Virus record (IMG/VR): IMGVR_UViG_3300010157_000258
Span: 1-23,415 of that record
Direction: 5' to 3' (one strand)
DNA from: a virus
DNA: 23,415 nucleotides
The notes beneath the pieces are model-generated. The model did no database searches. It saw nothing but the letters and a program-made list of their open reading frames with translations, and was not told the DNA's origin. Made by a program: the position numbers and the translations under genes. Positions 2,264 to 23,415 of the stretch are shown piece by piece; positions within the stretch are counted from its first letter, which is position 1; each line of letters opens with the position of its first letter.

Positions 2264-3397
2264 TTACACTCCAATTTTATTAAGGGCAGCAACCATTTGC
2301 TGACCGATTTGCATCACGGCTGGGCGAGGGTCATCCTCGGTTGCCAGTGTGTTGCCCGACGAGACAGAAACAACTAAACCTTCAGGCATTGACAACTTCG
2401 CCTTTTTAAGAAGCGGGTCAGTCTTTGCCGGTGAGATTACAGATGTCACCGTCACTTCAGCTTCAGGGAAATTCTGCGCGAGCCATTCGTAGGCTGTTGC
2501 TTCGTTAACCCATTGTCTCGTTGCGCGTTTCGGCACCAGTTTATACCCCGGCACGGGAACGCTTTTCTCAAGCATTGAAAACGCCAACGCCCTAAGGTCT
2601 TTAATCCAACCTTCTAGCAAATCAGCATTTGCAAGGTACTTGCCGATCATCTCCGCGTCTAGCCCCTCAATCTGCGTTTGCAAGGCTCTGTCCACAGCTC
2701 CGGTCATTAGAGGGCATACCGGACGGGCGGCGCACCATTTGCAATGGTCGCCATGTGCCAGTGGCGCATCTGGCTTCTGCGCTTTCTTCACCGCGCGGAT
2801 CAATTCTTTCTCGAAGTCGGCGATGCGAGCAGGCGTTGTCACCCAACGGGTTACACCTTTGGTAGGTTGAATGATAACACATTCGATTTCAGTTGCTCCA
2901 TCAAACACCCACTTGACTGAGGGTGTTCGCATGGCGGCTGCGGCGTAGAACATAAGCTGAGGGTTTTCTTCAGCGTATACCGCAACTCCGTCTCCGAACT
3001 TCCAATCGATGACATAGGCACGGTCACCAATTCGCCCAAGCAAATCAGTTGAACCGAACACTCCCGGCAATATATCTTCACCGAAACCAACTCTTGTTTC
3101 GACCGCGAGGGCCATCTCAAAGGTAGGATCGATCTGATTAAGCGCATCAAGCGCGGGTAAAAGTTTCTCATCCATCAGTTCCTGAGTTAGAACAATGCCT
3201 TCATATGTATGCCCCAGAAAAGACGACGGCGTTGCGTCTTTACCGACAATCTCAGCGATAACTTCGTGGAGCAAGGTGCCTTCGTCAGCATAACTGCTAG
3301 ACGGCTTGGCGGGCATTGTAGCGCATAACGCTACAGAGCCGGGACACGCGATGACGCGCTTGGCGGTGGAACCACCTACAATGTTACTGTGTTGCAT
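2264..3397 (-). CDS. DUF2800 family, Cas4/RecB-like PD-(D/E)XK nuclease
   Basis: A 377-aa nuclease of the DUF2800 type, related to Cas4/RecB exonucleases; in phages it is a likely DNA end-processing or recombination enzyme. Visible signatures are the N-terminal cysteine C18 (ACPGS), H44-E45 (GTLLHE), D118 (GSTDLLG), D131-W-K133 (VIDWKFGDG) and the QLMFY helix at 147-151. A CxxCx5C cluster follows (C219, C222, C228; CKWCAARPVCP). With C18 this makes the four cysteines expected for an Fe-S cluster of the Cas4/AddB kind, so all key residues look intact. Start ATG 3397 has an AAAGGA site that lies inside the upstream small gene, with which it overlaps by 14 bp. It is followed 2 bp later by the ssDNA-binding-type gene. 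Confidence 0.9.
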   Translation of the reverse strand: MQHSNIVGGSTAKRVIACPGSVALCATMPAKPSSSYADEGTLLHEVIAEIVGKDATPSSFLGHTYEGIVLTQELMDEKLLPALDALNQIDPTFEMALAVETRVGFGEDILPGVFGSTDLLGRIGDRAYVIDWKFGDGVAVYAEENPQLMFYAAAAMRTPSVKWVFDGATEIECVIIQPTKGVTRWVTTPARIADFEKELIRAVKKAQKPDAPLAHGDHCKWCAARPVCPLMTGAVDRALQTQIEGLDAEMIGKYLANADLLEGWIKDLRALAFSMLEKSVPVPGYKLVPKRATRQWVNEATAYEWLAQNFPEAEVTVTSVISPAKTDPLLKKAKLSMPEGLVVSVSSGNTLATEDDPRPAVMQIGQQMVAALNKIGV

Positions 3398-3572
3398 AGT
3401 TGGTTTCCTTTAAAAATTTTACCATATCGTCGATTATTTGATCAGGATTTTTTACAACTTCCAAACTAAGCCCAAGAAGCGTAACTAATACGTTGATAAC
3501 GTCATTATGAGTATGTCCACCTAAAATTTCGCTAATTTCTAACACTAATTCTTGTATTTCATCCGAAACCAT
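3384..3572 (-). CDS. Small conserved-looking phage protein of unknown function (62 aa)
   Basis: A small helical protein, EIQELVLEISEILGG...NVLVTLLGLSLEVV...IIDDMVKFLKE, with no recognised domain. A longer 82-aa reading from 3632 is open. I prefer ATG 3572 because it has a good AGGAAAGGAT ribosome site just upstream, and because a promoter-like sequence (TTGACA, 16 bp, TATGGT at 3628-3601) lies downstream of the 3632 start, so the extra 20 codons would not be on that transcript. It overlaps the DUF2800 start by 14 bp and is the first gene of the leftward early cluster. The function is unknown; a small regulatory or accessory protein is possible. Confidence 0.7.
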   Translation of the reverse strand: MVSDEIQELVLEISEILGGHTHNDVINVLVTLLGLSLEVVKNPDQIIDDMVKFLKETNYATQ

Positions 3573-3600
3573 TTCACTATCCTTTCCTGTTGAGGTGCCA

Positions 3601-3628
3601 ACCATACCGCAATAAAAAATGCTGTCAA
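3601..3628 (-). promoter_or_regulatory. Candidate leftward sigma70-type promoter for the early gene cluster
   Basis: On the minus strand TTGACA (3628-3623) is followed after 16 bp by TATGGT (3606-3601). The start at 3572, with its Shine-Dalgarno, then lies about 30 bp downstream. The -35 box is part of the 19-bp dyad at 3623-3641, so a protein bound there would block this promoter. The -10 matches the consensus only partly. Confidence 0.55.
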
Positions 3629-3641
3629 ACATTTTTTTACA
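3623..3641. promoter_or_regulatory. Operator-like dyad, copy 1 (TGTnAAA-N5-TTTnACA)
   Basis: The plus strand reads TGTCAAACATTTTTTTACA. It has the symmetric form TGTnAAA-N5-TTTnACA, and over 20 bp it matches the copy at 5030-5049 at 18 positions. It lies between the divergent starts at 3572 and 3706 and overlaps the leftward -35 box. It is probably a binding site for a phage regulator that is not encoded in the window; this is an inference from symmetry, placement and duplication. Confidence 0.55.
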
Positions 3642-3650
3642 AAGATGAAA

Positions 3651-3679
3651 TTAAACTGACATTATAAAGGTGGTATAAG
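3651..3679 (+). promoter_or_regulatory. Candidate rightward promoter for the phosphoesterase gene
   Basis: TTAAAC (3651-3656), 17 bp, TATAAG (3674-3679). The -10 is near consensus and the -35 is poor. The expected transcript would begin about 20 bp before ATG 3706 and include its AGAGGAT ribosome site. Confidence 0.4.
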
Positions 3680-3705
3680 GGCTTACCAAATCAGAGGATG
3701 ACCCA

Positions 3706-4638
3706 ATGGCTACTCCCCCTCTTAGTGCAGAAATTTTAATTGATACATTGCGTTTGTGGGAAGAAAATAAATGCGTTGATGCCGCCGCCGCGCGGTCGAT
3801 TGGCGTAAACGTCAAGACCTTTACCCACCGACGTTCGCAGGCACAACTGCGGTTTCCTAACGGAATACCTGATCAAACAATCAATGGGCGCTGGGCATAC
3901 CCGCGCATGATTGCAAAGAATGTTCCCGGAACGACATGGTTAATTGTTTCTGATTTACATATCTGGGATGGCGACCCGCCATTAATTTACAAAGCTGTTG
4001 TCAAGCTCGCCAAGACTCTAAAAGTAGACGGCATTGTTCTGAATGGCGACATTATCGATGGTGCTAGGATCTCGCGCCACCCGCAAATGCGTGGGTCAAA
4101 AGCACCTAAAATTGAAAAAGAAATTGAAACCGCCAAGCGGTGGATTAAGATGCTTCCAAAAGTCAAGCATCAACTCTGGACAATAGGCAACCACGACATT
4201 CGCATCGACAACTACATTGCCGCCAACGCCAATGAACTTGATGGATACATCCTGTCGCTTCACGAACATTTCCCAGATTGGGAATTTGCGTGGGCGTTTG
4301 AGTTTAACGAGACTGTTGAAATTCGGCATCGCTTTCGGTCGGGCATTCACTCAGGCTATAACAGTTCCATGCACTCCGGCCTTAGCATGGTGACAGGTCA
4401 TACGCATCAGCTACAGATCACGGCTATCAGGGATCGTAAGGGAACGCGCTGGGGCGTGGAAACTGGCACATTGGCTGACCCGCATGGGCCGCAGTTTCAG
4501 TATACCGAGGGCGCATCGTCGAGAGCGCAACAAGGCTTCGCCGTGCTTACATTTGACGATGACGGGGTAATGATGCCCCCTGAACTCTGCGAACTGCTAA
4601 ACGGCAGGCCAGTGTTCAGGGGGCAGTACGTATTTTAG
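3706..4638 (+). CDS. Calcineurin-like metallophosphoesterase with N-terminal helix-turn-helix-like domain
   Basis: A 310-aa protein. Residues 7-50 look like a DNA-binding helix-turn-helix (AAAARSIGVNVKTFTHRRSQ). The catalytic domain has all the blocks of the calcineurin-like metallophosphoesterase superfamily: D83-x-H85 (SDLHIWDG), GD at 114-115 (LNGDIIDG), GNHD at 161-164, H215 (SGIHSG) and GHTH at 231-234. Members bind two metal ions and cleave phosphomono- or diesters, including nucleic acids; the substrate here is unknown. ATG 3706 follows AGAGGAT and is the first gene of the rightward block. It ends tail-to-tail with the leftward gene at 4635, sharing 4 bp. Joined to a DNA-binding region, a role in nucleic-acid processing is more likely than small-molecule hydrolysis, but this is inference. 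Confidence 0.9.
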   Translation: MATPPLSAEILIDTLRLWEENKCVDAAAARSIGVNVKTFTHRRSQAQLRFPNGIPDQTINGRWAYPRMIAKNVPGTTWLIVSDLHIWDGDPPLIYKAVVKLAKTLKVDGIVLNGDIIDGARISRHPQMRGSKAPKIEKEIETAKRWIKMLPKVKHQLWTIGNHDIRIDNYIAANANELDGYILSLHEHFPDWEFAWAFEFNETVEIRHRFRSGIHSGYNSSMHSGLSMVTGHTHQLQITAIRDRKGTRWGVETGTLADPHGPQFQYTEGASSRAQQGFAVLTFDDDGVMMPPELCELLNGRPVFRGQYVF

Positions 4639-4967
4639 TCTTCGTCGCTAAGTTCGATCAGACCGTCAATGCCGTCATCTGTCGTGATCGTCATTAAAAT
4701 AGGGCGCTCAAAGGCTTCTGCCATCAAATCAAAATCGGCTGCAAGCTCTTCAAACGTAGCGCCGAAAGGCTCTGCGTTTTCGTCAGACCAATATTCGATG
4801 TCGCCATCGTCATTATAAAACACTTCGCGAATGGAAAACGTGTCCGTATCCCACGCAAGGTCTTCGTTCTTTGGGCTGTATATCACTCGATAATTCCATG
4901 CCATGTCTTCAATATCCTTACTTGGGGATGTTGCAAAATCCCATTCAAAAGCAAAAGTAGTTTGCAT
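4635..4967 (-). CDS. Small, very acidic protein of unknown function (110 aa)
   Basis: A 110-aa protein beginning MQTTFAFEWDF. It contains about 30 Asp/Glu against about 5 Lys/Arg, so it is strongly negative, with the pattern AWNYRV...DTFSIREVFYNDDGDIEYWSDENAEPFGATFEELAADFDLM. It resembles small uncharacterised proteins I have seen from phages and Alphaproteobacteria, without a known function. The open frame extends to 5039, but ATG 4967 has a clear CGGAGAA site seven bases upstream. The upstream part is intergenic-like and related to the other divergent gap, so I chose 4967. It is the only leftward gene inside the rightward block and ends tail-to-tail with the phosphoesterase. High acidity would fit a DNA-mimic role, but that is speculation. 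Confidence 0.75.
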   Translation of the reverse strand: MQTTFAFEWDFATSPSKDIEDMAWNYRVIYSPKNEDLAWDTDTFSIREVFYNDDGDIEYWSDENAEPFGATFEELAADFDLMAEAFERPILMTITTDDGIDGLIELSDED

Positions 4968-5028
4968 AATTAGTTCTCCGTTTCGCAAGGCTAAATACAC
5001 CATACGTGGATTGCAAAAAAATGACGAC

Positions 5029-5057
5029 TTGTCAAACAATCTTTTACAAGTTATGAA
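5029..5057 (+). promoter_or_regulatory. Candidate rightward promoter for the VRR-NUC/helicase genes
   Basis: TTGTCA (5029-5034), 17 bp, TATGAA (5052-5057). The -10 ends only 5 bp before ATG 5063, so a transcript from it would be leaderless or nearly so; no Shine-Dalgarno is visible before that ATG, which fits. The boxes straddle the operator-like dyad at 5030-5048. Confidence 0.4.
5030..5048. promoter_or_regulatory. Operator-like dyad, copy 2 (TGTnAAA-N5-TTTnACA)
   Basis: The plus strand reads TGTCAAACAATCTTTTACA, the same dyad as at 3623-3641, again between divergent genes (starts 4967 and 5063). A longer flanking symmetry, ACTTGT (5027-5032) and ACAAGT (5046-5051), is present only in this copy. 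It occupies the whole spacer of the candidate rightward promoter. Confidence 0.55.
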
Positions 5058-5062
5058 AACGT

Positions 5063-5332
5063 ATGGAAAAACACATTGAACAGCATCTGGTGCGCGAAGT
5101 TAAGAAGCGCGGCGGCGTAGCTTACAAGTTTACGTCGCCGTCGCATCGCGGCGTGTCAGATCGAATTGTGTGTTTGCCGGGGCAAACATGGTTTGTCGAA
5201 TTGAAACAGCCAAAAGGCAAACTATCGGCGCTTCAAGCGCAATTTGCCAACGACATGGAAAAGTTAAATCAACGATATATTTGTCTGTGGTCAAAAGAAG
5301 ATGTGGATAAATGGTTAAATGAAATTACGTGA
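5063..5332 (+). CDS. VRR-NUC domain nuclease (89 aa)
   Basis: A stand-alone VRR-NUC protein of the PD-(D/E)XK superfamily, of the usual phage length. The N-terminal helix has E2 and E6 (MEKHIEQHLV). Then come GGVAYKFTSPSHRGVSDRIV with D33, the FVELK strand with E46 and K48, and GKLSALQ at 52-58. All expected catalytic positions are present. Small phage VRR-NUC proteins are nickases or structure-specific nucleases and are commonly encoded beside a Snf2-like helicase, as here: the next gene starts within the last 14 bp. No clear ribosome site precedes ATG 5063, but the family pattern begins right at this Met. Confidence 0.92.
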   Translation: MEKHIEQHLVREVKKRGGVAYKFTSPSHRGVSDRIVCLPGQTWFVELKQPKGKLSALQAQFANDMEKLNQRYICLWSKEDVDKWLNEIT

Positions 5333-6596
5333 TTATCAGGAACAAGGCGCGGATTTTCTGTTTGCAAACGACCGCGCGATGATCTTAGCGCCGGTCGGCG
5401 CAGGCAAGACCGCGATGACCTTAGCCGCTATGCAAGACCTAGGCGGGCGGTTTCTGGTGTTAGCACCGCTGCGCGTCTGTAAAGACGTTTGGCCTGTCGA
5501 GCAACCCAAATGGGCACCTAAGTTGAAGTTAGCCGTTGCTGTAGGCACACCGGCGCAACGAGCGAAAGCCCTAGCATCTGACGCTGATGTGGTCGTAACC
5601 AATTATGACAATCTGCAATGGTTGGCGACGCAGCCGCTAAAATTTGACGCTATTGTGTTCGACGAGCTGACGCGGCTGAAGAACCCGTCAGGGACGCGGT
5701 TCAAGGCGTTGCATAAAGTAATTGACAAAATCCACATCCGGTGGGGGTTGACCGGTTCGTTTACATCAAACGGTCTTGAGGATGTCTTTGGGCAATGCAA
5801 GATTGTTGATCAATCGTTGCTCGGTCGGTCGAAAGGCGCGTTTCTTCAGCAATACTTCATGTTGACCAATCCAGACTACGGCGAATGGGTCGCCCGCGCC
5901 GGTTCGCTCGAAGCCGTGATGCAACGCATTAAGCCCGCTACCTTTGTGCTTGAACCCGGCGAATACGCCGACAAGCTGCCGCCCTGCCATATGGTCGAGA
6001 TGCGTTGCGACATGGAAGACCGCAAACCGTACGAGCAAATGAAGAAGGACTCGATTGCAAAGCTAGAAGATAAGGATGTAACCGCGTTGACTGCTGCGGT
6101 CGCCGTCAACAAACTCCAACAGATCTCGTCAGGGTTTGTCTATGACGAGACTGGCACCGCGCACTGGACGGGTTCGCACAAGTTTGATCTGTTGGATGAC
6201 ATTTTAGAAGAAAACCAACGATCTAACACAATCGTCGTTTATAACTACAAAGAAGAACTTGCTATGCTCCAACGGCTCTACCCTTATGCCAAAACCATTG
6301 ACGGCAACGTCGAGGCGTGGAACGAGGGCAAGATCCCGTTGCTGTTGATCCACCCCAAGTCTGCCGGTCACGGGCTGAATTTACAATATGGCGGGAATAA
6401 GATTATCTTCGTGTCGCTGCCGTGGTCGCTTGAGTTGTTTGAGCAGACTGTGGGACGGTTGCACCGAAGCGGTCAGAAGGAAGCAGTATGGTGCTACATC
6501 ATAATGACCAACAAAACAGTGGACGAACGGATATGGGCGAGCCTACACGACAAAAAAGCAATATCGGACATCGCGCTAGACGAGTTGAGGCTGTAA
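5319..6596 (+). CDS. Snf2/SSL2-type superfamily 2 DNA helicase/translocase
   Basis: A 425-aa complete SF2 ATPase of the phage Snf2-like type. It has a Q-motif-like start (LRDYQEQGADFL), Walker A VGAGKT (26-31), motif Ia LAPLRV (48-53), motif II DELT (115-118) followed by RLKNPSG, and motif III GLTGS (143-147). The second RecA lobe has motif V SAGHGLNLQY (348-357) and motif VI QTVGRLHRSGQ (376-386). It probably moves on double-stranded DNA to remodel or open it during replication or recombination, working with the overlapping VRR-NUC nuclease. The 14-bp overlap with the nuclease frame implies translational coupling. The final 64 bp overlap the next small gene. Confidence 0.93.
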   Translation: MKLRDYQEQGADFLFANDRAMILAPVGAGKTAMTLAAMQDLGGRFLVLAPLRVCKDVWPVEQPKWAPKLKLAVAVGTPAQRAKALASDADVVVTNYDNLQWLATQPLKFDAIVFDELTRLKNPSGTRFKALHKVIDKIHIRWGLTGSFTSNGLEDVFGQCKIVDQSLLGRSKGAFLQQYFMLTNPDYGEWVARAGSLEAVMQRIKPATFVLEPGEYADKLPPCHMVEMRCDMEDRKPYEQMKKDSIAKLEDKDVTALTAAVAVNKLQQISSGFVYDETGTAHWTGSHKFDLLDDILEENQRSNTIVVYNYKEELAMLQRLYPYAKTIDGNVEAWNEGKIPLLLIHPKSAGHGLNLQYGGNKIIFVSLPWSLELFEQTVGRLHRSGQKEAVWCYIIMTNKTVDERIWASLHDKKAISDIALDELRL

Positions 6597-23022: not shown

Positions 23023-23181
23023 TTATGCCTCGACCGGTGTAGTGATGATAGCGTACCAATTATCAAACCGAGCTTGCTTCATGGCTTCGATCTCGGCGTC
23101 GGTCAAAGCATGGTTATCGGGCAATACCAAAGCATCGCGCAAAGTGTAACCATTTTGAGTGATTTCAAAGTCAATAGTCAT
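23023..23181 (-). CDS. Small conserved-type phage protein (52 aa)
   Basis: A 52-aa protein: MTIDFEITQNGYTLRDALVL, then PDNHALTDAEIEAMKQARFDNWYAIITTPVEA. The DA(L/I)VLPD.H.LTDAEIEAMKQAR(F/Y)DNW pattern is one I associate with tiny proteins beside phage structural genes; the function is unknown. Its ATG overlaps the upstream stop as ATGA, and its stop lies 3 bp before the ATG of the solenoid-like gene, so it is surely in the same transcript. No good Shine-Dalgarno is visible, which fits coupled translation. Confidence 0.78.
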   Translation of the reverse strand: MTIDFEITQNGYTLRDALVLPDNHALTDAEIEAMKQARFDNWYAIITTPVEA

Positions 23182-23415
23182 GCTAAGAACCGCAATTTAT
23201 AAAGGGTTGTCAGATAAAGCTCGACGATATTGTCAATTAGCTGCTGAAGCGACGTATCTTTGCGATCCACGACATCATAGCGCACTGTTTCGATTTCGTC
23301 CAATTGGTTTTGGAGGAAATCAGTTACATTGGCCGTTTTGTTGTGCGATTGAAGCGAAATGCCACCAATCAACCCATGACGGCCTTGATATGCTTCGGCA
23401 AACGCATCCGCAGCA
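23178..23415 (-). CDS. Unrecognised phage protein, C-terminal 78 residues only
   Basis: The reading frame is open to the window edge, so this is the 3' end of a longer gene. The visible part is AADAFAEAYQGRHGLIGGIS, then LQSHNKTANVTDFLQNQLDEIETVRYDVVDRKDTSLQQLIDNIVELYLTTLYKLRFLA. It is a helical, mixed-charge C-terminus with no domain I recognise. A TTG at 23372 could serve as an internal start, but the protein-like sequence clearly continues upstream of it. Its stop overlaps the next ATG as ATGA. By position it may belong to the head or packaging region, whose portal and terminase genes are expected beyond the edge. Confidence 0.7.
   Translation of the reverse strand, partial: AADAFAEAYQGRHGLIGGISLQSHNKTANVTDFLQNQLDEIETVRYDVVDRKDTSLQQLIDNIVELYLTTLYKLRFLA

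Follow-up and report, generated by a model that had tools for sequence, protein, structure and literature searches.

A phage gene cassette bordered by two copies of what is probably one divided back-to-back promoter

Results

A two-gene cassette lies between divergent operons

The window, a 23,415-nt stretch of viral DNA (IMG/VR record IMGVR_UViG_3300010157_000258), belongs to a large phage family of about 37-39 kb that is known mostly from metagenome contigs. The family's one annotated relative, Podoviridae sp. ctNMl277 (MW202483.1), carries a P22-like structural module and has the same operon pair as the window, DUF2800-like leftward and VRR/SNF2 rightward. In the window, the leftward operon continues with further replication-type genes beyond those listed in Table 1. 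Between the two operons sit a metallophosphoesterase gene (PE) and a gene for a small acidic protein (L110), which are convergent and overlap at their 3' ends. By eye, the N-terminal part of the phosphoesterase resembles a helix-turn-helix. Near the far end of the window, a small leftward ORF at 23178-23372 weakly matches phrog_858, a starvation-inducible transcriptional regulator (9e-5).

Table 1. Features of the locus, in window coordinates.
Feature	Position	Strand	Remarks
Leftward operon, start	2264..3572	-	62-aa ORF 3384-3572; DUF2800/PD-(D/E)XK nuclease 2264-3397
P_L, TTGACA-N16-TATGGT, putative	3601..3628	-	promoter of 62-aa ORF/DUF2800/replication operon
Copy 1 of duplicated core, CTGTCAAACATTTTTTTACAA	3622..3642		retains leftward -35
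Two-gene cassette	3643..5028 (approximate limits)		between core copies; absent here in rest of family
PE (cassette gene 1), metallophosphoesterase	3706..4638	+	Pfam PF00149 3e-7; phrog_221 3e-31
L110 (cassette gene 2), small acidic protein	4635..4967	-	phrog_21321 2e-9
Cassette's own leftward promoter for gene 2, TCGTCA-N17-TATGGT, putative	4999..5027	-	rank 185 in window
Copy 2 of duplicated core, TTGTCAAACAATCTTTTACAAG	5029..5050		retains rightward -35
P_R, TTGTCA-N17-TATGAA, putative	5029..5057	+	promoter of VRR-NUC/helicase operon
Rightward operon, start	5063..6596	+	VRR-NUC-like nuclease 5063-5332; SNF2 helicase 5319-6596

The gaps on either side of the cassette genes share a short core

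An earlier note on this DNA had proposed that the gaps at 3573-3705 and 4968-5062 contain a shared, duplicated promoter or operator module. The shared stretch is real: the best 20-mer match between the gaps is 18/20, as claimed, while the best match in any of 300 Markov-resampled gap pairs was 16 or less. The dyad TGTnAAA-N5-TTTnACA that the note described in both gaps is likewise there, at 3623-3641 and 5030-5048, and these are the sole exact matches in the window, against 0.01 expected from dinucleotide shuffles; two dyads occurred in none of 100 shuffles. The similarity does not, however, continue outward as had been suggested, since the two copies are 84% identical in a 19-bp core and only 27% and 33% identical in the 30-bp flanks. 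Chance likeness of two AT-rich promoter regions can be set aside almost entirely. Both gaps are indeed about 35% GC, but 17/20 was reached in 0/300 simulated pairs, and both copies match the single core of relatives that lack the cassette (see below), which already refutes it.

Each copy overlaps promoter boxes that the earlier note had picked, leftward ones at site 1 and rightward ones at site 2; both sets are present (P_L, 3628-3601, and P_R, 5029-5057) and the same ones are conserved in relatives. P_L and P_R have hexamers and spacing of the sigma70 type: against TTGACA/TATAAT they match at 10/12 and 9/12 positions, their spacers fall within 16-18 bp, and both are conserved in orthologues, as in L085 and L088, which have an orthologous leftward TTGACA-N16-TATGTT. 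P_L, with an A-tract immediately upstream of its -35, scores 7th among about 234,000 site/spacing combinations in the window. P_R ranks only 25th, and the -10 boxes TATGGT and TATGAA are both mediocre. Scoring of the window found no acceptable -10 at 16-18 bp from the rightward TTGTCA of site 1, nor from the leftward TTGACA of site 2. Each copy therefore appears to keep one old promoter.

TATGGT also precedes both leftward genes at the distances reported previously, 28 bp from 3572 and 31 bp from 4967. The second of these boxes has another likely origin. Several other phage contexts have a leftward YGTCAT...TATGGT upstream of L110 too; the TATGGT near 5000 is thus most likely derived from the cassette and is no repeat of site 1. 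The leftward TTGACA at 5035-5030 was ruled out as the -35 of L110, as it lies 25 bp from TATGGT; TCGTCA at 5027-5022, 17 bp from TATGGT, is plausible. For PE there were several promoter candidates, including TTTACA-N18-CATTAT (at 3636) and CTGACA 12 bp from TATAAG, but not one was convincing. A YYGACAT...GGTATA motif recurs upstream of PE (window 3655-3680; L004, L028, L037), its boxes about 12 bp apart, too short for a usual sigma70 promoter.

Relatives without the cassette have a single core

Scans with PE, the helicase and DUF2800 gave about 240 loci. In all 119 locus records without the cassette (some contigs counted twice) the operons diverge and the two gene starts are separated by less than 1500 bp. 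The cassette is found at this place only in the window's near kin, L001 (whose PE is identical to that of the window), L002, L004, L005 and L007, and in the MAG contigs L243/L250, where the same split arrangement extends across two contigs overlapping by 99 nt. Unlike the window, MW202483.1 has one divergent gap of about 60 bp, with the core TTGTGCAACAAGTTTTTAATGG and no cassette.

Among these relatives, L085 and L088 have a VRR and a helicase 84-92% identical to those of the window. In both, as in L089-L092, a single core and no cassette separates the two operons. In the 19-bp core, copy 1 is 84-95% identical to the single core of cassette-free relatives, and copy 2 matches that core too. The flanks place the two copies. 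In L085 the order is left flank, TTGTCAAACATTTTTTTAC, AAGGTACAAAAGAATTATGG. Over 30 bp the left flank matches the left flank of copy 1 in L004 at 83% identity, and the right flank, AAGGTACAAAAGAATTATGG, equals the right flank of copy 2 in L007. The sequence to the right of copy 1 and to the left of copy 2 belongs to the cassette and is unrelated to the L085 flanks. The two copies are thus the relatives' single core, now at both edges of the cassette; judged by these alignments, the left half of the ancestral gap survives to the left of copy 1 and its right half to the right of copy 2. The earlier proposal of a shared, duplicated promoter module holds to this extent, but it missed that both gaps derive from a single gap of the ancestor, into which a cassette was inserted.

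The family core is a pair of overlapping -35 boxes

Across the family, the core consists of two -35 boxes that overlap on opposite strands, TTGTCA or TTGTGC rightward and TTGACA or TTGCAC leftward; TTGTCAA, for example, reads as TTGTCA rightward and as TTGACA leftward, and a T-tract adjoins it. In most of 38 distinct variants the rightward promoter follows the pattern TTGT(CA|GC)-N16-18-TA-type hexamer, then 5-7 nt and ATG. The leftward promoter has its -35, 15-18 bp, a -10 (often extended, TGTG) and then a Shine-Dalgarno sequence. These boxes may well be used by the host sigma70 polymerase.

The T-tract is present in 79 of 83 distinct family cores and lies at about -39 to -44 relative to the leftward promoter. 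The proximal UP element occupies about -39 to -44 of a promoter, and the A-tract that the tract forms upstream of the leftward -35 is UP-element-like and may act as one. A different reading is that the whole core, TGTSnAAACTTTTTTAC, is a non-palindromic site that, in addition to containing the -35 boxes, is recognized by an activator or silencer of phage or host. The T-tract and the AC that follows are near invariant in 33 diverse representatives, and the conservation of AAACTTTTTTAC is tighter than a sigma70 spacer calls for, so contact with another protein is possible. A promoter with an UP-like tract accounts for the same columns, though, and no candidate binding protein turned up, outside any systematic search; we regard such a site as possible but unlikely.

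In the window the P_R -10 is followed by 5 nt and then by the ATG at 5063. At sigma70-type promoters the RNA 5' end falls 5-9 nt past the -10. An ATG 5-7 nt past the -10 predicts a leaderless VRR-NUC mRNA, which we would expect from these distances in the window and in much of the family. The VRR-NUC gene in much of the family has this spacing and no Shine-Dalgarno sequence (5052-5063; L085, L100, L105, L145, L189, L222); in a few members, L095 and L192, a leader with a Shine-Dalgarno sequence is present. A subgroup (L102 at 4100-4170, L111, L194) carries a near-perfect dyad, TAGCACAG-N9-CTGTGCTA, with the ATG directly after TAAACTTTTTGAC; here either arm could double as the -35 in one direction and the extended -10 in the other.

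The dyad does not behave as a conserved operator

The earlier note had suggested that one regulator controls the leftward and rightward genes together. On this reading the dyad would be an operator, with a dimeric phage or host protein binding both copies. Two exact dyads where 0.01 are expected, arms that overlap promoter boxes, and intact dyads in the site-2 copies of L002, L004, L005, L007 and L243 all speak for this. Its conservation does not: the sister contigs L004, L005, L007 and L243 have a broken right arm at site 1, as do most cassette-free relatives in their single core, L088-L092 among them, and the dyad is present in only 6 of the 83 distinct family cores, each from the window's close clade. 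Among 18 core copies of that clade (not all independent), the left arm TGTnAAA (TGTCAAA) is intact in every one and the right arm broken in nine. Loss of the right arm beside a constant left arm is not what a selected palindrome should show, and it fits the overlapping -35 boxes, which explain the left arm.

Nor did further copies turn up, whether of an operator or of the phage-specific promoter motif, used at several places, that had been offered as the alternative. There is no third dyad in the window, itself part of a genome; two pattern searches, covering 16 records each, found no repeated sites in viral records besides the split core; and the long relatives G014, G017, G018 and G019 (32-39 kb) have a single core per record. 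The core occurs once per genome unless split by the cassette. One isolated dyad in G014, at 36994, was taken to be a chance match. The matching stretches probably do not form a pair of repressor operators, and co-regulation through the dyad by a single regulator seems improbable.

The cassette is moron-like and probably not a mobile element

The PE and L110 pair, also convergent, occurs in about 45 loci, most of which have no DUF2800, VRR or helicase within 5 kb; in L023, L026, L031 and L037 the genes to the right of the cassette are terminase-like, judged from sequence. The gene pair is widespread in metagenomic phages. At this locus, close relatives lack both genes.

Direct repeats of about 20 bp around a cassette that is present in some near relatives and absent from others could also be a target-site duplication, or the recombination site of a mobile element, with any promoter function incidental. 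The cassette has neither mark of a self-mobile element: gene annotation and profile searches found no transposase or integrase, just the phosphoesterase and the small acidic ORF, and inspection of its ends by eye found no terminal inverted repeats. Moreover, many relatives that lack the cassette have a conserved core, and in other phages the regions upstream of the cassette genes showed no repeat of this kind. We therefore consider a mobile-element origin of the repeats quite unlikely.

Discussion

We think it likely that the two matching stretches are copies of one back-to-back phage promoter, split when a cassette was captured and the shared -35 core duplicated, so that site 1 retains P_L and site 2 retains P_R. 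The ancestor would have had a single compact pair of back-to-back promoters between two divergent replication operons, with -35 boxes overlapping on opposite strands and a T-tract serving both as rightward spacer and as leftward upstream A-tract. In the window's lineage, a moron-like cassette of a metallophosphoesterase and a small acidic protein, bringing promoter-like signals of its own, would then have inserted and left about 20 bp of shared core on both its sides; since then the leftward operon would have been served by copy 1, the rightward one by copy 2. Because the -35 is shared, insertion without its duplication would have disarmed one operon; as the core comprises the overlapping divergent -35 pair and the T-tract, duplication gives each old operon its own -35.

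The course of the recombination we infer only in outline. The DUF2800 tree places the cassette-free L088 and L085 (as L164, L166) among carriers, and in the helicase tree L085 is the window's neighbour, at modest support. Cassette-free phages among carriers imply loss or exchange as well, and each single event could have gone either way; one gain followed by precise loss between the 20-bp repeats would explain the trees, as would exchange between phages. A broader and rather doubtful suggestion is that the conserved core is a recombination point at which accessory cassettes enter and leave between the family's two divergent replication operons, gain and precise loss being neutral for the flanking operons as both copies carry the shared -35.

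Lambdoid and other phages carry extra gene cassettes known as morons. The cassette is like them in that its genes are extra, have promoter-like signals of their own, are absent from sister phages and occur in unrelated phage contexts. It differs in having two convergent genes, in that no terminator was found at its edges, and in that a piece of the recipient phage's own promoter is duplicated at both its ends. A literature search on insertion-linked promoter duplication in phages found nothing close.

Published bidirectional promoters have pseudo-symmetric -10 elements, with starts mostly 18 bp apart and 10 and 23 also common (Warman et al., 2026; PMC12825309). The family core is like these in that one DNA segment would take polymerase in two orientations, so that one binding event should exclude the other; here, in contrast, it is the -35 boxes that overlap, and the predicted starts are about 60-65 bp apart.

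The locus offers natural before and after states of gene uptake inside the promoter region of two replication operons by way of a duplicated -35 core. It also carries a caution: promoter repeats flanking a cassette can mimic regulator operators if one genome alone is read. For a large and mostly uncultured phage family, it defines a testable promoter pair with predicted leaderless transcripts.

As to hosts, the helicase scan of genomes matched only MAG contigs, labelled Beijerinckiaceae, beta proteobacterium, Rhodoferax, Armatimonadetes and Burkholderiales. L243/L250 are contigs C175 and C6 of a MAG labelled Beijerinckiaceae, and they break at the copy-1 core, with the 99-nt overlap. This may hint at a host, at mixed populations with and without the cassette, or at mis-binning.
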